Positions 2,442-23,142 of a stretch of DNA of 64,000 nucleotides are shown in pieces. Position 1 is the first letter of the stretch. Each line of letters opens with the position of its first letter. Under the pieces are notes generated by a model. It was not told the DNA's origin and did no database searches. It was given only the letters and a program-made list of their open reading frames with translations. The stretch covers positions 62,001 to 126,000 of the forward strand of contig JAVEYB010000007.1 in the NCBI GenBank assembly GCA_034003725.1, written 5' to 3'. The DNA comes from Candidatus Zixiibacteriota bacterium. Lineage in GTDB: Bacteria > Zixibacteria > MSB-5A5 > GN15 > FEB-12. Made by a program: the position numbers and the translations under genes.

Positions 2442-3788
2442 CTAACCAACCATGATCGGCTCGTCGGGATAGACCAGTTCGCCGTGCTGCTCGCCGCGCG
2501 ACAGCGAAAACAAGAGAGTCAGCAAACCAACCCGACCGACAAACATCAGAAGTATAGCAATGATCTTCCCGGACGCTTCGAGCTGTGAAGTCGCCCCAAG
2601 TGACAGCCCGACGGTCGCAAACGCGGACACCACCTCGAACAAACTGTCCACAAACCAACCGTGCGCCAGCAAATGCGGCACCGGCCGTTCCTGAAGGAAC
2701 ATCATCGCCACAAATGCCCCGGCAATCGTGATCGATGCGACCACCATGATCGTCAGGGCCCGGGTAACCGAGTCCGGTGACAGGGACCGCTTGAAGGCTG
2801 CCACCGAGCGACGACCCATCAGGCGGTTGTAGGCCAGCAGCACGATCACCATGGCGGTCGTCACTTTCGTCCCCCCGCCGGTCGAGCCCGGACAGGCGCC
2901 GATAAACATCAAGAGCATAGTCACCAGCAGACTGACTTCGGTCAAGTGCGTCTGGGGAATGGTGTTGAATCCGGCTGTTCTCGCGGTGACGGCCTGGAAG
3001 AAGGCGTTCGCGAACGCATCAACCGAGGACATATGCGCGAACACATTGCCGCGGTCGGCGACTACGAAGGCAAGCGTTCCCGCGACAATCAGCACCGCCG
3101 TCCCGGTCAAACAGAGCTTGGTATGCAGCGACAGGCGCATCTGGCCATTCGGCCGCCACACCGCCACATCACGAACCACGGTGAAGCCCAGACCGCCGAG
3201 TATTATCAACGCCGAAACCGTCCCGATCAACGTCAGATTCGTCTGGTAGTGCTCCAGACTGCTGCTGAAGGTTGAGAAGCCGGCGTTGCAAAAGGCGCTG
3301 ACCGAGTGGAAGATGGCGTGCCAGAGGGCCTGATCAGCCGGATAATCGGCCCGAAAAACAAAAAACAGGATCGTCGTTCCCACCGCCTCTACGACGGCGG
3401 TAGTGATCAGCACCGCCCGAAGGATCGAGTGCGGGTGGAGTATATCCCCAGTGGAGAGCGATTCCGAGAGCACCAGGTTGTCCCGGAACGACAGCCGGGG
3501 TGTAATCGACAGCAGCAGCGCCGTCGCAAATGTCATGATTCCGAGACCGCCGAGTTGGATGAGCGTCAGGATTACGACCTGACCGAACAGGGAGAAGTCT
3601 TTGGGGGTATCGAGAACGATCAGGCCGGTGACACAGACCGCCGAGGTGGAGGTAAACAGGGCATCTATACAATGTATGTCCGGCCCCGCTGAGCTGAGCG
3701 GCAACGCCAGCAGGATAGAGCCGAGCAGGATGGCGCCTGCGAAATAGGCGATCAGTTTACGCCCGGGGCGTTTTCCGAGAAGTTCCAT
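2442..3788 (-). CDS. trkH: TrkH/KtrB-type potassium transporter membrane subunit
   Basis: Polytopic inner-membrane potassium transporter with the four-fold M1-P-M2 architecture. Four degenerate selectivity-filter loops are visible in order: TSAVCVTGL, HSVSAFCNAGFS, TARTAGFNT and VSAFATVGLS, each with the key glycine. The ATG at 3788 starts a 448-residue protein at MELLGKRPGRK, directly before the first membrane helix. A longer in-frame start at 3905 would add 39 residues without membrane or family character and would run into the promoter region of the divergent mutM, so the shorter start is preferred. The partner trkA follows 12 bases downstream. Confidence 0.92.
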   Translation of the reverse strand: MELLGKRPGRKLIAYFAGAILLGSILLALPLSSAGPDIHCIDALFTSTSAVCVTGLIVLDTPKDFSLFGQVVILTLIQLGGLGIMTFATALLLSITPRLSFRDNLVLSESLSTGDILHPHSILRAVLITTAVVEAVGTTILFFVFRADYPADQALWHAIFHSVSAFCNAGFSTFSSSLEHYQTNLTLIGTVSALIILGGLGFTVVRDVAVWRPNGQMRLSLHTKLCLTGTAVLIVAGTLAFVVADRGNVFAHMSSVDAFANAFFQAVTARTAGFNTIPQTHLTEVSLLVTMLLMFIGACPGSTGGGTKVTTAMVIVLLAYNRLMGRRSVAAFKRSLSPDSVTRALTIMVVASITIAGAFVAMMFLQERPVPHLLAHGWFVDSLFEVVSAFATVGLSLGATSQLEASGKIIAILLMFVGRVGLLTLLFSLSRGEQHGELVYPDEPIMVG

Positions 3789-12697: not shown

Positions 12698-15600
12698 TTA
12701 TGCTTTGGTCACCGCAATAACGGCTTCCTCGCCGTTTATATTCCAGGTTTTCGCACCGTCGTGCGTATCTGCGAGGCCGTAGTCAATCCGTTCGGCCAGC
12801 GTCTCGCGCCGGATGAATTCTTCGTGCCGGCTAATCGCCGTCCTGAGACGTTCGGATGGCCGCAACGCAACCGTAATCCGGTCGGTCACTTCGAGCCCGG
12901 AGCTCTTGCGCATGTTCTGGATCTTGTTAACCATCTCGCGGGCGAAACCTTCGTCGCGAAGCTCGTCGGTCAATTCGGTTACGAGCGCGATGGTCAACGC
13001 ATTGTCGGTTTCGACGGCGTACCCCGCCCGCTCGACCCGCGTCACATCGACTTCTTCCGGAGTAAGCGCAACCCGCTCACCATCGACAGACAGTACCAGT
13101 TCGCCCGTTCGCGCAAACGCCCGCACGGCTTCGCTGGCAAGCTTCTGCACGAGCGGGGCGACAGACTTGACCTTGCCGCCGAGTTTGGGGCCCGCAGCCT
13201 TGAAATTGAGTTTGGCCGAATACGTGACGTAGCTGTCCACCTCGTCCGACTGGATGATCTGCTTGACATTTAGTTCATCACGCACGATCGGCAGATACTC
13301 CAGCAGCTGGTCGAGGTCGGACTTGCCGTGAAGCGATACCAGGAGTGTAGACAGCGGCTGACGCACTTTCAGATTGTGACGCGCCCGCGCCGCCCGTCCC
13401 ATGGATACCATCCGGCGAACCGTCTCCATCGTGTCTTCCAGAACGTCATCGATCTCGGTCCCGATCGGTTTGGGGTAGTCGCACAGGTGTACAGTCAACG
13501 GCAAGCCGTGCCGTTCACGATCGGCCCCGGCCAGCTCGCCCCAGAGCAGTTCGGAGATAAACGGGGCGATCGGCGCGCTCAACCGACAGACCCCTTCGAG
13601 CATGCGGTACAACGTCAGGTACGCCCGCATCTTCGACGGATCGTCGCCGTCCGCCCAGTACCGCCGGCGGTTGTTGCGGACATACCAGTTGGAGAGATCC
13701 TCGATCACGAATTCCTGAATCTCGCGGACCGCGCGCGTGATGTCGTATTTGTCCAGCGACCGCGTAACTTCGGTCACCGTCGTGTTGTACCGGGAGACAA
13801 TCCATCGGTCGAACCTGCTCGGTTCGCCGGACAGCGACTCCAGAAACGCATCGACTGTCTTGTCGGCCGCGGCCGCCCGCCCCGCGGTATCGTCGATATT
13901 GGCGTAAATGGCGAAAAACGAATACGTATTGCGCAGCGTGTCGAAATACTTTCGCACCACCTCGCTCAGCCCTTCGAAATCAAACTTGGTCGGCAGCCAC
14001 GGGTTGGAGGTACTGACAAGGTACCAGCGAAGCGGGTCGGCGCCGTACTGATCGACCGTTTCGAATGGGTTGACGACGTTGCCTTTGTGTTTCGACATCT
14101 TCTTGCCGACTTTGTCGAGAATGAATTCGAGCACGATCACGTTTTTGAACGGGGCGATCCCCTTGAACATGGTCGATATGGCCAGCAGCGAATAAAACCA
14201 GCCGCGGGTCTGGTCCACCGCCTCGGAAATGAAATCGGCCGGAAACTTCCGCTGGAATTCATCGATATTCTCAAACGGGTAGTGCCACTGCGCGAACGGC
14301 ATCGCTCCGGAATCAAACCAGACGTCGATCAGCTCCGGCACCCGGGTCATGCCGCCGCCGCATTCGCAGGTCAACTTGATTGCGTCGATACCGGGCCGAT
14401 GCAGGCCAAGTTCCTTGAGAGCGGCGTCAATTTCGGCCCCCGGCGTGAGGGCATGCTTTCGCAGTTCTTCGAGCGATCCGATCGCCCGCTGTTTCCCACA
14501 CGCGGGATCGTCGCAAATCCAGATCGGAAGCGGCGTCCCCCAGAAACGTTCGCGCGACAGCGCCCAGTCGACATTGTTCTCCAGCCAGTTGGCCATGCGG
14601 CCGGACCGGATCTCGTCGGGATGCCAGTTGATCGAATTGTTGTTCTCGAGCAGCCGGTCGCGAAAATCAGTCGTTTTGATATACCATGACTCACGCGCGA
14701 TATAGATCAGCGGCGAGTCACACCGCCAGCAGAACGGATAGTTGTGCTCGTACTGCTCCTTCTTGAAGAGTCTGCCGTCGGCCTTGAGATCTTTGGTGAT
14801 TTCCTTGTCGGCGTCCTTGATCCACATCCCGGCATATTTGCCCGAGTGTGGTTTGAAAATGCCGTTTGGCTCGATCGCCTGAAGGATCGGCAGATCGTGC
14901 AACTTGCCGGCTTCGTAGTCGTCGGCGCCGAACCCCGGTGCGATATGCACGATACCGGTACCGTCGTCGAGCGTGACAAAATCCGCATTGATTACAAAAA
15001 ACGCCCGGTCACGATAATCGGCGAACGTATCGAACAGCGGCTCGTATTTTCTTGATACGAACTCAGAGCCTTTGTACTTCTCGAGAATGCGAGGTTGCTC
15101 ATCGAACACCTGACCGAGAAGCGCCTCCGCCAACACCATCTTCTCCCCGTCGTGCTCGACCAGGACGTAGTCGGCATCAGCCTGCATGGCAAGGGCGGCG
15201 TTCGACGGCAGCGTCCATGGAGTAGTGGTCCACACGAGATAGGAGAAATCTCCGTCGGCCGCCTTGACTTTTACGAACACCGAGGGGTCCTGCACCATCT
15301 CGTACCCCTGCGCCACCTCGTGGCTCGACAGCGCCGTGCCGCAGCGCGGACAGTACGGGACGGTTTTGTGTCCTTTGTAGATCAATCCTTTGTCGTGCAG
15401 GAACTTGAGAATATGCCAGACCGACTCGATATAGTTGTCCGTCAGCGTAACGTAGGCATCGTCCAAATCCAGCCAGTAGCCGATTCGCCGCGTAATGCTA
15501 TTCCAGTCTTCAAGATACTTGAAAACCGACTCGCGGCACTTCCGGTTGAATTCGATGATACCGTACTCGACCACTTTCTGTTTCGAATCCAGCCCCAGCG

Positions 15601-15898
15601 CTTTCTCGACCTCAATCTCCACCGGCAGGCCGTGCGTGTCCCAACCGGCCTTCCGGTCGACCCGGTAGCCCGACATCGTCTTGTACCGGCAGATGAGATC
15701 CTTGACGGTCCGTGAAATCACGTGGTGAATACCCGGTTTGCCGTTTGCGGTCGGGGGACCCTCGTAGAAAACAAAGTGCGGGCGGTCCGCGACAGCCTTG
15801 TTGACGTGGTCGAATATTCTGCGTTCGTCCCAGAAGGCGAGGATCTTCTCCTCGGCCCCAGGCAGCGAGAAGTTGTCTTTGAGCGGGTCGAATCTCAT
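12698..15898 (-). CDS. ileS: Isoleucine--tRNA ligase (type 2, eukaryote-like)
   Basis: Class I aminoacyl-tRNA synthetase of 1066 residues that charges tRNA-Ile and edits valine. The ATP-binding HIGH motif appears as GIHH in GPPTANGKPGIHHVISR, the AGWDTHGLPVE segment follows, and the KMSKS loop is KKMSKHKGN. The length and the GIHH region match the type 2 IleS that is often resistant to mupirocin; that resistance is inferred, not shown. The C-terminal part carries the anticodon-binding and tail domains. The 230-base leader (15899-16128) shows no clear T-box or riboswitch. dksA and lspA follow on the same strand. Confidence 0.98.
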   Translation of the reverse strand: MRFDPLKDNFSLPGAEEKILAFWDERRIFDHVNKAVADRPHFVFYEGPPTANGKPGIHHVISRTVKDLICRYKTMSGYRVDRKAGWDTHGLPVEIEVEKALGLDSKQKVVEYGIIEFNRKCRESVFKYLEDWNSITRRIGYWLDLDDAYVTLTDNYIESVWHILKFLHDKGLIYKGHKTVPYCPRCGTALSSHEVAQGYEMVQDPSVFVKVKAADGDFSYLVWTTTPWTLPSNAALAMQADADYVLVEHDGEKMVLAEALLGQVFDEQPRILEKYKGSEFVSRKYEPLFDTFADYRDRAFFVINADFVTLDDGTGIVHIAPGFGADDYEAGKLHDLPILQAIEPNGIFKPHSGKYAGMWIKDADKEITKDLKADGRLFKKEQYEHNYPFCWRCDSPLIYIARESWYIKTTDFRDRLLENNNSINWHPDEIRSGRMANWLENNVDWALSRERFWGTPLPIWICDDPACGKQRAIGSLEELRKHALTPGAEIDAALKELGLHRPGIDAIKLTCECGGGMTRVPELIDVWFDSGAMPFAQWHYPFENIDEFQRKFPADFISEAVDQTRGWFYSLLAISTMFKGIAPFKNVIVLEFILDKVGKKMSKHKGNVVNPFETVDQYGADPLRWYLVSTSNPWLPTKFDFEGLSEVVRKYFDTLRNTYSFFAIYANIDDTAGRAAAADKTVDAFLESLSGEPSRFDRWIVSRYNTTVTEVTRSLDKYDITRAVREIQEFVIEDLSNWYVRNNRRRYWADGDDPSKMRAYLTLYRMLEGVCRLSAPIAPFISELLWGELAGADRERHGLPLTVHLCDYPKPIGTEIDDVLEDTMETVRRMVSMGRAARARHNLKVRQPLSTLLVSLHGKSDLDQLLEYLPIVRDELNVKQIIQSDEVDSYVTYSAKLNFKAAGPKLGGKVKSVAPLVQKLASEAVRAFARTGELVLSVDGERVALTPEEVDVTRVERAGYAVETDNALTIALVTELTDELRDEGFAREMVNKIQNMRKSSGLEVTDRITVALRPSERLRTAISRHEEFIRRETLAERIDYGLADTHDGAKTWNINGEEAVIAVTKA

Positions 15899-16128
15899 CT
15901 TCGTTTATGCCGGTTTGACGGATCTTTGTTTTGTTACAGCCTTTCAATTTAGACGGAAGGTCCGATTTTGTAAAGACAAAACGGCCGCCCCACGCGGGGG
16001 CCCTTGACAAAGTGGGTCGCTCGTGTCGATTTTAACCCGGCCCGTTCGTCGTCTCTGTGACAGCACTGGCGCATCAAGTCGAAACGTCAGTCACTCTTAT
16101 ATTTCATATTCCTCAGAAAGGACGGCTT

Positions 16129-16467
16129 ATGCCTCAGTACATGTTGCTGATTCACAACGGAGACTGGGAGGAGTTGTCCCCCGAACAAATGCAGCAGACC
16201 ATCCAGCGCTATATCGCCTGGGTGCGCACGCTCAGAGAGCAGCACAGATTCATCGCCGGCGATGAACTGAAAAACACGGGCCGTACTCTGGTCGTCAAAA
16301 ACGGGCAAATCGTCGATGGTCCGTTCACTGAAACCAAAGAGATCATCGGCGGCTATTTCATCATTGAGGCCGCCGACTACGACGAAGCCGTGGCTGTCAC
16401 CCGTGATTGTCCGACCTTCGCGCACGGCGGCTCCGTTCAGGTTCGCGAGATCAACAATCCGGGGTAG
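16129..16467 (+). CDS. DGPF-domain (YCII-related) protein, partner of the ECF42 sigma factor
   Basis: A 112-residue ferredoxin-like-fold protein beginning MPQYMLLIHNG. The defining DGPF sequence is at residues 63-66 (IVDGPFTETKEIIGGY). Proteins of this kind are typically encoded next to ECF42 sigma factors and are thought to belong to their regulon or signalling route. The ATG at 16129 has AGAAAGGA upstream and is preferred to an in-frame ATG at 16057, which would add 24 unconserved residues. The sigma factor starts six bases after the stop. The biochemical role of DGPF proteins is not established. Confidence 0.92.
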   Translation: MPQYMLLIHNGDWEELSPEQMQQTIQRYIAWVRTLREQHRFIAGDELKNTGRTLVVKNGQIVDGPFTETKEIIGGYFIIEAADYDEAVAVTRDCPTFAHGGSVQVREINNPG

Positions 16468-16473
16468 TGGCGC

Positions 16474-17757
16474 TTGAACGTTCTGCGTCCTCGCCCTCAG
16501 CCAACCGAACGAGTTAACGAACTGGTCGGACACCTTTTTCGCCACAAGTCCGGAGAGATCGTTGCTACACTGGTTCGTCTATTTGGGATCGATCGACTTG
16601 AACTGGTCGAAGATGTTGTTCAGGAAGCTTTGCTGACAGGACTTAAGAATTGGTCTTTCAAGGGAATACCTGACAATCCGGCTGGTTGGATCGTAACCGC
16701 CGCACGCAACCGGGCACTGGACATTATCCGTCGCGATAAGCTGCTGGCAGCGCGCGAAAAGGAAATTGTATCACAACTCTATGTCAGTGAATATGATAAT
16801 ATTTCTGAGCCCGGTGGTCAGTCGATCTGCGATGACCAGCTTGCGCTGATTTTCGCATGTTGTACCCCGGAGCTGAGTCATGATAGCCAGGTCGCCCTCG
16901 TACTTAAGTTGTTAGCCGGTTTATCGGTTACAGAGATTGCGAAGGCGTTTTTGACCTCGGAATCTGTGATAGCCCAACGCCTTGTCCGCGCGAAACGAGT
17001 ACTCAGATGCCGCTCGGCTGCTATTAAGATACCAGAGGACAAGGAATTAGAGCATCGATTGAAATCGGTCCACCAGATTCTTTATCTGATGTTCAATGAG
17101 GGGTACAACGCGCATGCCGGCGATGATCTGGTGCGACATGATCTTGTCGGCGAGGCGTTGCGCCTGACGAATATACTGGTTAATCACCACCTCGGAGATA
17201 CCCCGGGGTCATTTGCTCTAATGGCACTCATGTGTCTTCAGGCATCGCGGATCCCGGCACGAGTGGATCAGGAGGGGAATCTGGTCCTGCTCTCCAGACA
17301 GGATAGGTCGCTATGGGACAAAAAGTTAATATGTGACGGCATGCATTTCCTCGACCGGGCCGCTCAGGGAGATACTTTAAGCGCCTTTCATCTTGAGGCG
17401 GGTATTGCGGGCTGCCATGCCACTGCGCCGGATTACTCGGCCACAGACTGGAAGCAGATCGTCTTTTACTACGATGCTTTGCTTGAACGGCAACGATCGC
17501 CGGTTCTTGCCCTCAACAGGGCGATTGCTTTGTCCATGTCAGGATCTATAGAGCGGGCTTTGGCGGAACTCGAGCAACTCGCAGACGATCCTAAACTCGC
17601 CGGCTACTACCTGTACCACGCCTCGCGTGCCGAGCTGTTCACACGGGCAGGGCAGCACGCCGACGCGCGCCGGGCCTACCTGACAGCGCTGAAACTGACC
17701 GAGTCCGCCCCCGAACAGCGATTCCTCCGTGCGCAGATTGCCGCGCTCGAACACTGA
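16474..17757 (+). CDS. ECF42-type sigma factor with C-terminal TPR-like extension
   Basis: The N-terminal 170 residues or so are an ECF sigma factor: region 2 includes LELVEDVVQEALLTGL and NPAGWIVTAARNRALDIIRR, and region 4 includes LKLLAGLSVTEIAKAFLTSESVIAQRLVRAK. About 250 further residues form the DUF6596/TPR-like extension found in ECF42 (SigJ-related) factors, with YLMFNEGYNAH and LNRAIAL as conserved segments. No anti-sigma factor gene is adjacent; in this group the long C-terminus is thought to regulate activity. The start is a TTG six bases after the DGPF stop, so the two genes are probably co-translated. Confidence 0.93.
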   Translation: MNVLRPRPQPTERVNELVGHLFRHKSGEIVATLVRLFGIDRLELVEDVVQEALLTGLKNWSFKGIPDNPAGWIVTAARNRALDIIRRDKLLAAREKEIVSQLYVSEYDNISEPGGQSICDDQLALIFACCTPELSHDSQVALVLKLLAGLSVTEIAKAFLTSESVIAQRLVRAKRVLRCRSAAIKIPEDKELEHRLKSVHQILYLMFNEGYNAHAGDDLVRHDLVGEALRLTNILVNHHLGDTPGSFALMALMCLQASRIPARVDQEGNLVLLSRQDRSLWDKKLICDGMHFLDRAAQGDTLSAFHLEAGIAGCHATAPDYSATDWKQIVFYYDALLERQRSPVLALNRAIALSMSGSIERALAELEQLADDPKLAGYYLYHASRAELFTRAGQHADARRAYLTALKLTESAPEQRFLRAQIAALEH

Positions 17758-17850
17758 TCCGGCGGCACCTATTGTGCGACTGCAAGCTTGACATTCCCTT
17801 CACCCTTCCCTATCCCACCGGTGTTACAACCAAAGACCTGGAAGAAAACC

Positions 17851-18315
17851 ATGTATATAGTAGCGCCGGTGGCTTGGGTGAGCTCCACCTACGGTGATGG
17901 TCGGGACGGCCGTGCCGACCAGGACATCGCAACCATAATGCTCGATGACCGCATGCCCGATGAAGCGCTCGACGGCGTTGAGGAATTCTCGCATCTGGAG
18001 ATCATTCTCTATTTCCACAAAGCTGATCCCGCCAGAATCAATCCGGAACTTTCCCACCCCCGCGGAAACCCCGCCTACTCGAAAGTCGGTGTTGTTGCCC
18101 GGCGGGGACCCAACCGTCCGAATCATCTCGGCCTGACTGTGGTCGAAGTGGTTCAGCGCGACGGCCGGAAAGTGATCGTCAGAGGACGCGATGCACTCGA
18201 TGGATCCCCGGTTATTGATATCAGACCCTTGATGACCGGACTTCTGCCGCGCTCTCCCGTCCGTCAGCCACGATGGGCCGACGAAATAATGTCCGAACAT
18301 GAGAAAAACAGTTGA
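17851..18315 (+). CDS. trmO: TsaA/TrmO-family tRNA methyltransferase
   Basis: The TrmO family uses S-adenosylmethionine to methylate N6-threonylcarbamoyladenosine at position 37 of certain tRNAs. Conserved parts here are LDGVEEFSHLEIILYFHKAD, HPRGNPAYSKVGVVARRGPNRPNHLGLTVVEV (positions about 70-102, the SAM-binding RPN region) and LDGSPVIDIRP. The protein has 154 residues, so it is the short, single-domain version. The ATG at 17851 (GGAAG upstream) gives MYIVAPVAW; a longer start at 17788 adds a proline-rich unconserved leader. It lies between the ECF42 gene and the TetR promoter, which begins inside its last codons. Confidence 0.85.
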   Translation: MYIVAPVAWVSSTYGDGRDGRADQDIATIMLDDRMPDEALDGVEEFSHLEIILYFHKADPARINPELSHPRGNPAYSKVGVVARRGPNRPNHLGLTVVEVVQRDGRKVIVRGRDALDGSPVIDIRPLMTGLLPRSPVRQPRWADEIMSEHEKNS

Positions 18316-18340
18316 CTATACCGACCAGTCGGTTTAGATT
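18312..18340 (+). promoter_or_regulatory. TetR-gene promoter with embedded operator; mRNA probably leaderless
   Basis: A -35 box TTGACT (18312-18317), a 17-base spacer and a -10 box TAGATT (18335-18340) form a good sigma-70-type promoter. The spacer holds the perfect palindrome ACCGACCAGTCGGT (18320-18333), which recurs upstream of the methyltransferase. The downstream ATG is at 18347, only six bases after the -10 box, so transcription should begin at or next to the start codon. Confidence 0.75.
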
Positions 18341-18346
18341 CTGGGT

Positions 18347-18934
18347 ATGAAATCAGAGACGGCCAAAGAGAGACTAATCAGTGCATCGCTTCAGTTAATG
18401 TTGAGTCGAGGTTACGCAGCGACATCGGTAGATGACATTTGCAGTGCCGCCCAGGTGAGCAAAGGCAGTTTCTACCATTTCTTCAAGTCCAAGGAAGAAC
18501 TCGGGCTTGCCATGCTCGACGATTTTTTCCGGCAATCCCGCGAAGCGACCATGGCCGGCTCGTTCAACCAGGAACCCGATCCGGTAAAGAGACTCCGCGG
18601 TTACCTGCACTTCATCGAGGAAAACGCCGAGACGTTTTGGGAGAAGGGCTGCATTCTGGGCAATTTCGCCAACGAACTTTCAAACACGCACCCCATCATG
18701 AGAGAGAGGGTTTCATTGATTCTCCAGCGTGTCACGGAGTCAATGGCTGAGCGGTTTGCCCCGATCCAGCAGAAATATCCGGATCGCGAAGAGCTCTCCG
18801 CCATCCGTCTGGCCGAGCTGTTGGTCTCTTTAATCGAAGGTGCACTTGTACTTAGCAGAGCCCATGACGATTGGTCCTACCTGACCAGAGCCCTAAAGGG
18901 CTTCCGCCTCTATACAGAATCTCTACTAAATTGA
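18347..18934 (+). CDS. TetR/AcrR-family transcriptional repressor
   Basis: A 195-residue regulator. The N-terminal helix-turn-helix is clear: AKERLISASLQLMLSRGYAATSVDDICSAAQVSKGSFYHFFKSKEEL (residues about 5-51). The all-helical C-terminal ligand domain is unassigned. Identical palindromes, ACCGACCAGTCGGT, lie in its own promoter and in the promoter region of the downstream methyltransferase, so it most likely represses itself and that gene and is released by an unknown small molecule. The ATG is only six bases after the predicted -10 box, and no Shine-Dalgarno is present. The dimer-operator match is inferred from position and repetition. Confidence 0.93.
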   Translation: MKSETAKERLISASLQLMLSRGYAATSVDDICSAAQVSKGSFYHFFKSKEELGLAMLDDFFRQSREATMAGSFNQEPDPVKRLRGYLHFIEENAETFWEKGCILGNFANELSNTHPIMRERVSLILQRVTESMAERFAPIQQKYPDREELSAIRLAELLVSLIEGALVLSRAHDDWSYLTRALKGFRLYTESLLN

Positions 18935-18951
18935 TATTTTTTTGAAACAAA

Positions 18952-18979
18952 TTGTACCGACCAGTCGGTATAGTAGATT
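18952..18979 (+). promoter_or_regulatory. Second TetR operator and promoter, upstream of the methyltransferase
   Basis: The perfect 16-base palindrome TACCGACCAGTCGGTA (18955-18970) repeats the operator of the TetR promoter. It is overlapped by TTGTAC (18952-18957) and followed by TAGATT (18974-18979), a 16-base spacing that would place it inside a promoter. An alternative -10 is TATAGT at 18969-18974. The methyltransferase starts at 19038. Confidence 0.72.
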
Positions 18980-19037
18980 GAAATAACGCCGGGCGGATTC
19001 ATAACAGCGAACTAGTATTAATCGAAAGGACCATCCC

Positions 19038-20135
19038 ATGGTACTCAACCCGTCTGCCATCGGAACGAACGAAACGCCCGTTGCTCTCAACGAGGAGAAA
19101 CTCCATCAATTTGTCGGCAAGATGGTTAATGAGATGGGCGCCGCTGTGACCGCGCCACTCGTCTTGATCGGAGACAAGCTGGGTCTTTACCGAGCCCTCG
19201 CGAAGAACGGACCTATGGATGCCCGTCAGCTTGCTGCCGCGACGAACACGGGCGAGCGGTACATCACCGAGTGGCTGGCCAGTCAGGCGGCCTCGGGATA
19301 TATCGACTATGACCCGGCATCACAGACCTTTTCCATGACTCCGGAGCAGGTTGCCGTTTTTGCCGACGAACACAGCCCATACCTGATGACCGGCGCGTAC
19401 TACTCCATGGCGTCGGTGTATCGTGACGAACCGAAACTCGCCGAGGCCTTCAAGACGGACGCGGGGATACCGTGGGGCAACCACGACGGCTGTCTGTTTT
19501 GTGGAGTCGCCAAATTCTTCCGCCCGGGATACGAAGCGAATCTGATCCAGAGTTGGATTCCAGCGCTTCCGGGGGTCGGCGAGCGGCTCAGGGCGGGCGC
19601 GAATGTCGCCGATATCGGCTGCGGCTTCGGTATTTCCACGATCATCATGGCCAAGCACTATCCGAAATCCCGCTTCTACGGTTTTGATATTCATGCAGAG
19701 TCGATCGATGAAGCGCGAAAGCTCGCCGCGAACGAAGGGTTAACCAATATCACGTTCGAGGTAGCAACGGCCAAGTCGTTCCCGGGAAACGACTATGACC
19801 TGATAGCGTGTTTCGACAGCCTGCATGACATGGGTGATCCGGCGGGCGCAGCGAGTTACATATACTCGAAGCTTCGCGACGAAGGCTCCTGGATGATTGT
19901 CGAGCCGTTCGCTCACGATGATCTTGAGCAGAACCTGAACCCGATCGGCCGCGTGTACTACGCGTATTCCGCGCAGGTGTGCACCCCCACATCACTGAGC
20001 CAGGAAGTCGGCGCCGCGCTGGGGGCGCAGGCCGGCGAGCGGAAGCTCCGTGACATCATCGAACCCGCCGGCTTTCGATCGGTCCGCAGAGCGGCCGAGA
20101 CGCCGTTCAACCTCATCCTGCAGGCGGTACGATGA
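19038..20135 (+). CDS. SAM-dependent methyltransferase (Rv2258c-like, winged-helix N-domain)
   Basis: A 365-residue enzyme with an N-terminal winged-helix dimerisation domain (about 20-105, including LGLYRALAKNGPMDARQLAAAT) and a class I Rossmann methyltransferase domain. The SAM-binding motif is VADIGCGFGIS near residue 192, with the acidic ribose-contacting GFDIH following. The layout matches the Mycobacterium Rv2258c family, whose natural substrate is unknown. The ATG has GAAAGGA upstream. It sits behind a promoter carrying the same operator as the adjacent TetR gene, so it is probably the regulated target, which suggests modification or detoxification of an inducing small molecule. Confidence 0.9.
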   Translation: MVLNPSAIGTNETPVALNEEKLHQFVGKMVNEMGAAVTAPLVLIGDKLGLYRALAKNGPMDARQLAAATNTGERYITEWLASQAASGYIDYDPASQTFSMTPEQVAVFADEHSPYLMTGAYYSMASVYRDEPKLAEAFKTDAGIPWGNHDGCLFCGVAKFFRPGYEANLIQSWIPALPGVGERLRAGANVADIGCGFGISTIIMAKHYPKSRFYGFDIHAESIDEARKLAANEGLTNITFEVATAKSFPGNDYDLIACFDSLHDMGDPAGAASYIYSKLRDEGSWMIVEPFAHDDLEQNLNPIGRVYYAYSAQVCTPTSLSQEVGAALGAQAGERKLRDIIEPAGFRSVRRAAETPFNLILQAVR

Positions 20136-20156
20136 TCGTTCAACGAAGAGCAGAAC

Positions 20157-20192
20157 CAATCGGGGGCCGGCGATCGCCGCAGCCCCCGGTTG
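20157..20192 (+). other. Stable hairpin after the methyltransferase gene
   Basis: An 11-base-pair stem (CAATCGGGGGC/GCCCCCGGTTG, one G-T pair) encloses a second self-complementary segment CGGCGATCGCCG. It lies 21 bases after the methyltransferase stop and 42 bases before the next gene. There is no T tract, so it could be an mRNA-stabilising or partial-termination element. Confidence 0.55.
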
Positions 20193-20234
20193 AAGAAAAC
20201 CTGAACATCAAGACAATGAATAGGAGACAGCAGT

Positions 20235-20525
20235 ATGCCAAGATTCCTGATTGAAGTACCGCATGAAGAGGAAACGCTTGCCTGCGCCCGCGCCATCAAG
20301 ATTCTCTTCGAAAGCGGCTCGCACTTTCTGACCAACGCGGATTTCGGCTGCCGCGACGGTGTGCACAAAGCGTGGATCGTGGTCGACGTCGATTCGAAGG
20401 ACGAGGCTCGCACCATGCTTCACCCGGCGTTTCGCGAGAAGGCGACAATCGTTGAACTCAACAAGTTCTCGCCCGAGGCACTGGACGAGCTGTTATTGTA
20501 TCATGAGAGCCTGCAGTCGGCGTGA
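20235..20525 (+). CDS. Small uncharacterised protein
   Basis: A 96-residue cytoplasmic protein, MPRFLIEVPHEEETLACARAIKIL..., with no signal peptide or membrane segment. The alternating hydrophobic strands (RFLIEVPH, AWIVVDVDS, ATIVELNKF) and interspersed helices suggest a small ferredoxin-like alpha/beta fold, and a cysteine pair region GCRDG is visible. I do not recognise a named family. A good AGGAGA lies nine bases before the ATG. It is co-oriented with and 99 bases downstream of the TetR-controlled methyltransferase, so it may belong to the same transcript, with the hairpin at 20157-20192 between them. Confidence 0.75.
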   Translation: MPRFLIEVPHEEETLACARAIKILFESGSHFLTNADFGCRDGVHKAWIVVDVDSKDEARTMLHPAFREKATIVELNKFSPEALDELLLYHESLQSA

Positions 20526-20554
20526 ATCACACCGCCGCCCTGCGACACGGGGAG

Positions 20555-20588
20555 GACCCATCGAATTGTTCGAGCATTTCGATGGGTC
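20555..20588 (+). terminator. Hairpin after the small gene, terminator-like but without a T tract
   Basis: A perfect 11-base-pair inverted repeat GACCCATCGAA/TTCGATGGGTC with a 12-base loop lies 29 bases after the stop at 20525. The stem is strong but no T run follows, so termination is uncertain. Confidence 0.5.
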
Positions 20589-20773
20589 GTATCTCGACCG
20601 ACCGGTTGCGCGCCGGGCCCGGGTATGAGGCGGACGTCCCAATAAATCCGCTGACATCGCCTTTCCGTTTCGTATATTAGTACCGCGCGACCACATTCCG
20701 GGATTACCACGTGCGTACCGCCCACCGATGCTGTCCGGAATCGGCCACAACTCTGAACCGAGAGGTAAAGCCG

Positions 20774-21778
20774 ATGCTTACCAGCGACACCAGGAGACGG
20801 ATTGCCGCCCTGCTCGACGACTCAGCCGTGCGACAGATTATTGTCGAGGAATTATCCGCGGTATGCCACCAGAAACCGCCCGATATGACGATCGAGGTGT
20901 TCGGGCACGAGGTTGCCCGCCTGATACTTCTGAGTCTCCATGAGCAACTTCGTGACGAGTGCGATCGCCAGCTCGGACGAGAGCGGGCCATGCGCGCTAT
21001 CGACCGAACGACACCCCCGGACCACCCTATCGATTTCGAATTTGTGCTCAACGGCTTGATGCTCGGCATGGAGCATGACCTCCTGGTTGGCAATCTGCAG
21101 ATGATCCGGGCGCTTGGCGGCGCAATCGCACAGCGCGACACCGGTACCGACGAACACAACGCCCGGGTGACGCTGTATGCTCATAGTCTCGGACAGAAGG
21201 CCGGTTTCGGATCCGAGCGCCTGCAAGCGCTCCTCAAAGGCTCGTTCGTGCACGACATCGGCAAAATCGGGATTCGAGACGGTATCCTGCTCAAAGTCGA
21301 CCGGCTCAGCGAAAAGGAGCTGGCCACGATGCACTCTCACGCAGTGCTCGGCTGCCGGATAATCAAAGGCGTACGATGGCTGGCCGATGCGTACGATGTC
21401 GTGCGGCATCACCACGAACGATACGACGGACTGGGGTATCCCGACGGGCTGTCGGGGGAATCGATTCCCATAACGGCGCGCGCGTTTGCAATCGCCGACG
21501 TATTCGACGCTTTGACGTCGGAGCGTGCGTACAAGCCTGCCCTGTCGTGCGAACAGGCCCTCATCCAGATGGAAGCCGAGCGGGGAAGACATTTCGATCC
21601 GGACCTGCTCGACATCTTTCTGCAAATCGCGACAGACCTGTGCGAGTCAATCGTCGCCCGCCCCCTCGCCGAACTTGACAATATGGTTGTCGAGGTAATC
21701 ACACGCGTGTTCGGGGTCAACCCGTCGAGCGAGTACGTTGCCACCGACGAATTCAAACAGCGATACAGCGGTCACTAG
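20774..21778 (+). CDS. HD-GYP domain protein (probable cyclic-di-GMP phosphodiesterase)
   Basis: A 334-residue protein whose C-terminal half is an HD-GYP domain, a metal-dependent phosphohydrolase that degrades cyclic di-GMP. Visible marks are HDIGKIGIRD (HD pair near residues 160-161), HSHAVLGCRII, HHHERYDGLGYPDG (GYP near 222-224) and FAIADVFDALTSERAYKP. The N-terminal 110 residues form an unrecognised helical domain, with no receiver, PAS or membrane segment, so the input signal is unknown. The ATG at 20774 has AGAGGT upstream; a longer start at 20711 lacks conservation. It converges with ogt 24 bases downstream. Confidence 0.92.
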   Translation: MLTSDTRRRIAALLDDSAVRQIIVEELSAVCHQKPPDMTIEVFGHEVARLILLSLHEQLRDECDRQLGRERAMRAIDRTTPPDHPIDFEFVLNGLMLGMEHDLLVGNLQMIRALGGAIAQRDTGTDEHNARVTLYAHSLGQKAGFGSERLQALLKGSFVHDIGKIGIRDGILLKVDRLSEKELATMHSHAVLGCRIIKGVRWLADAYDVVRHHHERYDGLGYPDGLSGESIPITARAFAIADVFDALTSERAYKPALSCEQALIQMEAERGRHFDPDLLDIFLQIATDLCESIVARPLAELDNMVVEVITRVFGVNPSSEYVATDEFKQRYSGH

Positions 21779-21801
21779 TGCCCATCGTGTTTCCCCGCTG
21801 T

Positions 21802-22362
21802 CTACCGAGCTCGGTCGAGATTCTGAATCCGTGACGTGGTTTCCAACGGCATCCGGCTGATGCCGCGTTCAAGGTCCAACAGCGCCCGCTTCCGCCACAG
21901 CTTGCCGCCGTAGCCTCGAAGGTTCCCGTTGGATTCGATTACCCGATGGCATGGGATGACGATTGCAAGGTAATTGGCCCCGTTGGCGCGTCCGACCGCT
22001 CGCGAGGCACCGGGTTTATCGAGCGATGCAGCAATCTGACCGTACGATCGCGTCTCGCCATACGGTATGCCGAGCAACTCGCGCCAGACCAGCTGCTCGA
22101 ATGCCGTGCCGGTTACGTCGATCGGCACGGTGAATTCCCGCAGTTGCCGATCGAAATATGCGCGCAGTTCTCGCCCGAGGGCTGCGAGGTGTGCGCTGCT
22201 GCCTTCGACCAGATCGCATCGATACCGTTTGATTACCCGCGCTCTGATGTGATGGACTCCTCCGCGGTCGTGCCACTCCAGAAATGAGACGCCGTTCTCG
22301 GTTGCACCGGCAATCATCGGGCCGAGCGGGGATTCCAGATCGGTTATCCACATTTTACGCAT
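21802..22362 (-). CDS. ogt: Methylated-DNA--protein-cysteine methyltransferase
   Basis: Suicide repair protein that removes methyl groups from O6-methylguanine onto its own cysteine. The active-site motif IPCHRVI with the acceptor cysteine, the preceding GRANGANYLAIV segment, the helix-turn-helix YGETRSYGQIAASLDKPGASRAVG, and GGKLWRKRALLDLE are all present. The ATG at 22362 overlaps the end of the Ada-type regulator by 8 bases (ATGCGTAA), so expression is coupled. Together the two genes supply the activities that E. coli Ada carries in one chain. Confidence 0.94.
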   Translation of the reverse strand: MRKMWITDLESPLGPMIAGATENGVSFLEWHDRGGVHHIRARVIKRYRCDLVEGSSAHLAALGRELRAYFDRQLREFTVPIDVTGTAFEQLVWRELLGIPYGETRSYGQIAASLDKPGASRAVGRANGANYLAIVIPCHRVIESNGNLRGYGGKLWRKRALLDLERGISRMPLETTSRIQNLDRAR

Positions 22363-22900
22363 GTGTTTGACTCCTGCCCGGCGTGATGCCGAACTCCCGT
22401 CGAAATGCGTCGCGGAAGCCCGACGATGACTCATAGCCGCATTCATAGGCTGCGCTCAGGTAGTTCGCACCGGAGGCCAACAGCTCCCGCGCATACAACA
22501 GGCGCTGCCGACGGTTAAACGCCAGCGGCGTCATGCCGAGGTGATGACGGAAATGACGACGGATCGTAGTGATATCAACGCCGGCTGTCTGAGCGAGCAT
22601 TCGTTCCGTCAGGCGCCGCGTCCGATGTTCGCGCATGAACGCCACCACCTGCCGCACCCATTCCGGCAGCACGTCGGGATAACGGTCGGACCTGCACCGT
22701 TTGCAGCCGCGCAACCCGGCGGCGATCGCCTCTTCGCGAGTCGCGTAAAACCGGACGTTTTTCAACAAGGGGAGGCGGGCCGGGCATGACGGCAGGCAAT
22801 AAATACCGGTTGAACGCACGCCGACATAAAAGCGGCCGTCGTACCGCCGGTCGTTGGTCCGCATCGCCCGCACCATCGTCTCGTAGGAAAGCTGTATCAT
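22355..22900 (-). CDS. Ada-type methylphosphotriester sensor/AraC-family activator
   Basis: A 181-residue protein equal to the N-terminal half of E. coli Ada. The Ada zinc domain (about residues 1-75) has RRYDGRFYVGVRSTGIYCLPSCPA and GLRGCKRC, giving the four zinc cysteines including the one that accepts methyl from DNA phosphotriesters. An AraC-type helix-turn-helix pair follows (about 85-178, with DITTIRRHFRHHLGMTPLAFNRRQR and GYESSSGFRDAFRREFG). The ATG at 22900 is preferred to one 30 codons upstream. It precedes and overlaps ogt, so a split Ada operon that activates itself on alkylation damage is likely. The promoter should lie between 22901 and 23142, shared with divergent pepF. Confidence 0.93.
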   Translation of the reverse strand: MIQLSYETMVRAMRTNDRRYDGRFYVGVRSTGIYCLPSCPARLPLLKNVRFYATREEAIAAGLRGCKRCRSDRYPDVLPEWVRQVVAFMREHRTRRLTERMLAQTAGVDITTIRRHFRHHLGMTPLAFNRRQRLLYARELLASGANYLSAAYECGYESSSGFRDAFRREFGITPGRSQTHA

Positions 22901-23142
22901 GACGGAAAAATGCGGCAGACATCGGGGCGGCGCTACCGGAAATCGGGCGCCGATATGAAAAACTGCAGATAAGATTCGGCCGGCGCGCACTCTATTTAAC
23001 GGGCCCGTCTCCGGACTGCAGAGGGGGCCGGAACCTTATGCCTCGCTTCCGTGTAGACTAGTAGCGTACTTGCCGCTTGCCATCCCGTACGGCGTATGCG
23101 ATCATTGGACCAACGAACACTCACCCGACCGAAAGGACCGCT

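Follow-up and report, generated by a model that had tools for sequence, protein, structure and literature searches.

Results

Two copies of one palindrome flank a TetR gene

We analyzed a 64,000-nucleotide stretch of DNA from a Candidatus Zixiibacteriota bacterium (the window; contig JAVEYB010000007.1, positions 62,001 to 126,000) that contains a TetR-family repressor gene, a methyltransferase gene behind it, and a palindrome upstream of each that is the putative operator of the repressor (O1 and O2). The genes on the plus strand are, in order, a YCII-domain open reading frame (ORF), an extracytoplasmic function (ECF)-type sigma factor gene with DUF6596, a TrmO_N-domain gene, the TetR gene, the methyltransferase gene and a short ORF. 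The relevant features, in window coordinates, are:

17851-18315, plus strand: TrmO_N-domain (trmO-like) gene; 80.9 bits, just below the NCBIfam TrmO cut-off of 93.25
18312..18317, plus strand: -35 box TTGACT of the predicted TetR promoter, which holds the stop codon of the trmO-like gene (TGA, 18313-18315)
18320..18333, no strand: candidate operator O1, ACCGACCAGTCGGT, within the 17-bp spacer; its position matches that in the related loci L034 and L035 (below)
18335..18340, plus strand: predicted -10 box TAGATT, whose TAG is an in-frame stop
18347..18934, plus strand: TetR-family repressor, 195 residues, predicted leaderless; Cys102 aligns to NemR residue 106
18955..18970, no strand: candidate operator O2 (16-mer TACCGACCAGTCGGTA), 3' of the TetR gene and 5' of the methyltransferase ATG
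18969..18979, plus strand: weak candidate -10 region of the methyltransferase gene, TATAGT (18969-18974) or TAGATT (18974-18979), by eye
19025..19030, plus strand: AAAGGA, likely ribosome-binding site of the methyltransferase gene, by eye
19038..20135, plus strand: S-adenosylmethionine (SAM)-dependent methyltransferase, 365 residues, with an Rv2258c-like winged helix-turn-helix (HTH_65) and Methyltransf_31
20235-20525, plus strand: ORF of 96 residues 3' of the methyltransferase gene, with no Pfam or NCBIfam match and no tblastn match in L034

An earlier reading of the window, made from the sequence alone, had noted identical TetR operators at two places, and the 14-mer ACCGACCAGTCGGT is indeed present at 18320-18333 and again at 18956-18969, the latter copy ending 68 bp 5' of the methyltransferase ATG (19038). 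It consists of two 6-bp arms around a central CA, and this centre is non-palindromic. That reading had also called for a genome-wide operator search, which found just two exact copies in the whole genome of 3,728,517 bp, both in the module, 636 bp apart and one on each side of the repressor gene. With the centre left free, ACCGACNNGTCGGT matched the same two places without mismatch and none other. Because the genome holds no further exact site, the circuit is probably local.

Weaker matches are more common. One-mismatch forms of ACCGACNNGTCGGT occur at 49 places in the genome, compared to 9 for a reversed-pattern control, an unexplained excess of roughly fivefold; since the pattern is palindromic, the 49 matches on each strand are the same places. 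In the window, a scan allowing up to three mismatches gave 22 matches against 7.4 expected, with 19 in the largest shuffle, and four of the 22 are O1 and O2, each counted on both strands. Some one-mismatch sites may be weaker regulon targets. We rejected a wider regulon built on these forms, as only the two exact sites stand out.

The repressor mRNA is predicted to be leaderless

The TetR promoter consists of TTGACT, a 17-bp spacer (18318-18334) filled by O1, TAGATT and six bases leading to the ATG at 18347. The -10 box contains a TAG in frame with the ATG, so the protein cannot start upstream of this stop, and by eye there is no clear Shine-Dalgarno (SD) sequence 5' of the ATG. The region thus resembles the leaderless architecture of acuR, with a promoter apparently placed for transcription to start at the AUG, an overlapping operator and no clear SD sequence. 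The sequence-only reading had proposed a leaderless mRNA from the six bases between the -10 box and the ATG. The proposal gains support from the same layout in L034 and L035, from the promoter-to-start distance in 25 of 61 relatives and from AcuR being the closest curated model. The TetR mRNA most likely starts at the AUG.

Two distant genomes carry the same arrangement

The TetR of locus L034, from the Nitrospirota, is 43% identical to that of the window. Its gene is preceded by TTGACT-17-TATAAA-6-ATG, whose spacer contains the operator, and another operator lies 5' of a methyltransferase 62% identical to that of the window. The gene upstream of tetR is divergent here, so tetR needs its own promoter at this locus. 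This divergent gene region (2696-3754, minus strand) encodes a paralogous Rv2258c-like methyltransferase (28% identity) 5' of TetR, which the first operator might affect too.

In L035, from an alphaproteobacterium, the TetR is 37% identical and the geometry is TTGACT-17-TAGAGA-8-ATG. The second operator stands before a MATE pump gene, and the gene after the pump reaches 231 bits against a cut-off of 270 for the methanethiol S-methyltransferase MddA. In both genomes the sole exact ACCGACYRGTCGGT is the second site of the module, and each first site differs from it at one position. In L035 the second operator is embedded in a 32-bp palindrome, AACCACTAAACCGACCAGTCGGTTTAGTGGTT (2974-3005), interrupted solely at its central two bases.

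A survey of TetR relatives

A scan of genome contigs with the window TetR yielded 63 loci. These relatives were found with peptide patterns that include FYHFFKSK, and their shared recognition helix therefore reflects the selection. We dropped L093 and L095, for which the start codon was not found, leaving 61 relatives that have both a start codon and 100 bp of sequence ahead of it; some come from related species, and the samples are not independent. TTGAC begins at -39 to -32 from the start codon in 25/61 relatives, compared to 5/191 control ORFs (Fisher 2.7e-13). The controls were ORFs of at least 250 residues from the same loci, read from the most upstream ATG, and misplaced starts may lower their counts. 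The position profile is free of this bias: 25 TetR matches fall in the -40 to -31 bins, with at most two per bin from -95 to -41. An operator-like core, GACYRGTC or GAC-N6-GTC, occurs in the last 45 bp before the start in 35/61 relatives and 7/191 controls. SD-like sequences show the opposite trend (6/61 relatives vs 56/191 controls), and none of the 25 promoter-positive relatives has one.

Among the 35 relatives with a recognizable first operator, 18 have another copy in the locus when up to three mismatches in 16 are allowed, and shuffled sequences gave means of 0 to 0.4 per locus. In 17/35 the second copy falls between +606 and +770 relative to the TetR start, which places it between 11 bp before and 192 bp after the TetR stop. 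L034 is outside the 35, its first site having been missed by the regular expression.

To these 17 loci we added L034 and took, in each of the 18, the longest ORF starting between -40 and +400 bp of the second site. On the efflux side these ORFs comprise an RND pump, three HlyD-type genes and a MATE pump. Others encode a flavodoxin-like oxidoreductase, a PRISE-like reductase, a DsrE-like protein, a carboxymuconolactone-decarboxylase-family protein and a thioredoxin; of the rest, three are PagL-like, one is the methyltransferase and four match no Pfam family. The chosen ORF in L037 and L090 starts about 260 bp past the second site and may not be the first gene. The three PagL-like (lipid A deacylase family) genes follow the second operators of L051, L059 and L086, an unexpected target for this TetR branch.

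The repressor has a NemR-type cysteine

The repressor belongs to the TetR family by PF00440 (57 bits, cut-off 24), and its C-terminal domain scores above the gathering cut-offs of 27 for two LmrA/YxaF-like models (TetR_C_13_2 and TetR_C_13), PF21993 (44.5 bits) and PF16925 (43.2 bits). The best NCBIfam model is AcuR (NF051457, an equivalog), at 77.7 bits against a cut-off of 247, which does not make the protein an AcuR equivalog. An AlphaFold2 model from 39 aligned sequences has a mean predicted local distance difference test (pLDDT) score of 94.6 and contains helices only. Its nearest solved structures include 3bru (Z 20.8), PA2196, NemR (4yze, Z 19.0) and YxaF (1sgm, Z 18.6). Cys102 occupies the position of the NemR cysteine: in the column aligned to Escherichia coli NemR residue 106, 59 of 63 rows (the window TetR, NemR and the 61 relatives) have a cysteine, and the remaining four are gapped.

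Two precedents bear on this residue. NemR responds to N-ethylmaleimide, bleach and diamide, and the release of its homologue AltR by thiosulfinates depends on Cys100 (PMC13178969). The region upstream of E. coli nemR contains TAGACCGACTGGTCTA, which shares ACCGACTGGTC with the other strand of the window operator at a similar distance from the ATG. Because of the alignment of Cys102 with NemR residue 106, the AltR Cys100 precedent and the likeness to the nemR operator, we favor, with moderate confidence, the view that the window TetR answers to a reactive electrophile or to thiol stress. The nemR locus (L111, 1488-1526) itself reads TTGCAC-17-TACACT-7-ATG, where the spacer holds an operator and TTGCAC lies 36 bp from the ATG, and by eye it looks leaderless from its geometry.

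The methyltransferase resembles Rv2258c and TnmJ

The methyltransferase scores 47.3 bits for PF21320 (HTH_65; cut-off 24.1) and 68.7 for PF13847 (Methyltransf_31; cut-off 27), and it has the SAM-binding Rossmann glycine motif DIGCGFG at residues 192-198. By sequence it matches the solved structures of TnmJ (8g5s, the best) and 5f8c over about 335-340 of its 365 residues; the likeness to both includes the HTH_65 domain. TnmJ has a role in enediyne biosynthesis, and 5f8c we take to be Rv2258c of Mycobacterium tuberculosis. A fold model of the methyltransferase was poor (pLDDT 55.8) and was not used. We dropped an ArsM-like, cysteine-rich active site because the C152/C155 pair occurs in only 7/24 subfamily rows and C315 is also found in paralogues. 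The text consulted on Rv2258c in PMC10784701 names no substrate. In L035, the MddA-like enzyme encoded behind the second operator hints at possible thiol chemistry for the window methyltransferase. MddM1 and MddM2 are UbiG/UbiE-type enzymes of 210 and 204 residues (PMC12904073).

Distribution of the module

Eight other genomes among the 132 of the phylum have methyltransferase matches at E<=1e-40. In a tree, six of them fall with the paralogous type, and just L025 and L026 with the window enzyme. The window methyltransferase groups with L025 of its own order and with two members of the Nitrospirota sample, L034 and L121, with support (90/93) that is not firm. Gain by transfer is plausible. In the Nitrospirota sample, 15/395 genomes (that of L034 included) have the methyltransferase at E<=1e-90. 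Within flanks of up to 1.5 kb, TetR and operators accompany it in the L034 genome only, and L125 has one palindrome with two mismatches.

Among plasmid records, 853 match the TetR (E<=1e-5) and 257 the methyltransferase (E<=1e-40), and every match is below 60% identity. We examined five of the 20 methyltransferase plasmid loci listed: their stretches have no annotated TetR and no tblastn match to the window TetR, and an operator scan of the five found two-mismatch matches alone, in L108 and L110. Allowing up to two mismatches, TTGACNNRACYGACYRGTCGGTNTA occurs in 3/385 genomes of the class sample of L035 and 2/395 of the phylum sample of L034, and the reversed pattern also gives scattered single matches. 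Of the matches beyond L034 and L035, we regard L137, L139 and L141 as background, having found no clear relative of the window TetR or methyltransferase within 3 kb. A literature search with the operator string found no paper, and none of the titles or abstract openings listed by searches on leaderless mRNAs with TetR operators, nemR, the TetR family and AcuR describes this TetR–methyltransferase module.

Upstream of the module in the window, the YCII-domain ORF and the ECF-type sigma factor gene (16057-17757, plus strand) are a possible functional pair immediately 5' of the trmO-like gene.

Discussion

We conclude that the locus is probably an autorepressed two-gene switch with one local target, in which a leaderless repressor gene is followed by a methyltransferase gene induced upon release by electrophile or thiol stress. 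A TetR dimer would bind in the spacer of its own promoter, at O1, as well as at O2 before the methyltransferase gene, and block RNA polymerase at both. The leaderless tetR mRNA, with no ribosome-binding site, would be translated weakly, and the geometry of the sequence predicts a leader and a Shine-Dalgarno sequence on the methyltransferase mRNA. A small reactive compound (an electrophile or an agent of thiol stress is most likely) may be sensed at or near the conserved Cys102 and release the repressor, upon which the induced methyltransferase may modify the compound or its product; we hold these last two steps with moderate confidence. The sequence-only reading had described a compact, self-contained module, and the comparative layout agrees with such a two-gene circuit.

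Several observations weigh against this interpretation. TTGAC is not at the expected place in 36/61 relatives, the second site is absent from the locus in 17/35 relatives with a recognizable first operator, and at E<=1e-20 the TetR has matches in 0/53 other genomes of the family. The operators were said to lie inside two promoters, which holds for O1; at O2 a consensus scan gave no sigma-70 match and the -35 region is poor by eye, leaving the second promoter weakly recognizable. The cysteine at position 102 is by itself no proof of electrophile sensing. In Halomonas AcuR, Cys122, which we infer to be at the same position, lines the proposed pocket, but the text consulted does not list it with the residues whose replacement reduces acrylate or dimethylsulfoniopropionate (DMSP) binding (PMC13104084). 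QdoR, of the same broad branch, answers to a flavonoid (PMC8481877), so a plain ligand is also possible for the window TetR.

The trmO-like gene, transcribed in the same direction, stops at 18315, 31 bp 5' of the TetR ATG, and no terminator-like site is listed by the scan in the gap, so that read-through could supply a leader. The tetR mRNA might then come mostly from the trmO-like gene and be translated by coupling or from a longer mRNA, with the O1 promoter minor. We consider this quite unlikely, given that L034 has identical geometry behind a divergent gene, that TTGAC is positioned so much more often in the relatives than in control ORFs, and that no clear SD sequence precedes the TetR ATG. 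That the palindromes are not TetR operators at all, and are instead chance copies, a hairpin or a terminator, is very improbable. The scan does list O2 as a minus-strand terminator-like hairpin, yet the genome has exactly two copies, the same motif takes the same two positions in the distant genomes of L034 and L035, and 17/35 relatives repeat their own operator at or just past the end of the repressor gene. This layout supports the earlier designation of the palindromes as TetR operators.

The methyltransferase could instead be a tailoring or housekeeping enzyme whose product or precursor, rather than a toxic compound, is the feedback ligand of TetR. Its best solved relative by sequence, TnmJ, fits this idea, and the five plasmid-borne relatives examined adjoin varied genes with no shared detoxification theme. 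Against it, five efflux and five redox- or thiol-related genes stand behind the second sites of the 18 loci (our own labelling of Pfam names, with some related species among them), and no biosynthetic cluster was recognized among the ORFs of 15000-23000, the part examined for one. We judge such feedback unlikely and prefer the stress-released switch.

The leaderless autoregulated TetR design is already known, and the module in the window is a further example. The acuR mRNA of Rhodobacter sphaeroides begins exactly at the AUG, as mapped by 5' rapid amplification of cDNA ends, with an operator overlapping the promoter; similar regions occur in other bacteria, and lambda cI and Tn1721 tetR are also named as leaderless (PMC3017554). 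The window module resembles acuR-acuI-dddL in having the TetR repressor gene first and an operator over the -35/-10 promoter, and in its closest NCBIfam model. In contrast, the R. sphaeroides genes form one operon with one promoter, with internal promoters sought and none found, and have the operator TAATAGAC-n6-GTCTATTA and acrylate and DMSP genes as targets (PMC3017554).

Other relatives share different parts of the design. NemR of E. coli K-12 has the same fold and the aligned cysteine, although it is only 21% identical to the window TetR and regulates nemA and gloA (PMC9342713). With QdoR (YxaF)/LmrA of Bacillus subtilis the window TetR shares the LmrA/YxaF-like C-terminal domain, and QdoR also represses its own gene and that of a detoxification enzyme through separate operators; however, the qdoR operator lies 3' of the -10 site, qdoI has two operators, and the target is a dioxygenase and the ligand a flavonoid (PMC8481877). 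AltR of Pantoea ananatis, a NemR-like TetR, has one box at its own promoter, with imperfect copies at other places in its cluster, but that cluster contains ten other genes and the signal is thiosulfinates (PMC13178969).

One might go further, tentatively and with considerable doubt, and propose a single conserved circuit (a leaderless start, one operator in the promoter spacer and another ahead of the following gene) across an AcuR/NemR/LmrA-like, cysteine-bearing TetR branch in many phyla. Leaderless translation would keep the repressor scarce and allow quick release under reactive small-molecule stress, and the output here would be a methyltransferase of undescribed detoxifying chemistry, possibly acting on thiols.

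The locus offers a clean two-site regulon with a sharply defined operator, and the compound that releases the repressor would point to what this Rv2258c-like methyltransferase acts on. From the comparison, the leaderless design of acuR appears to extend to a wider branch of repressors; if this is true, leaderless translation recurs in autoregulatory switches.
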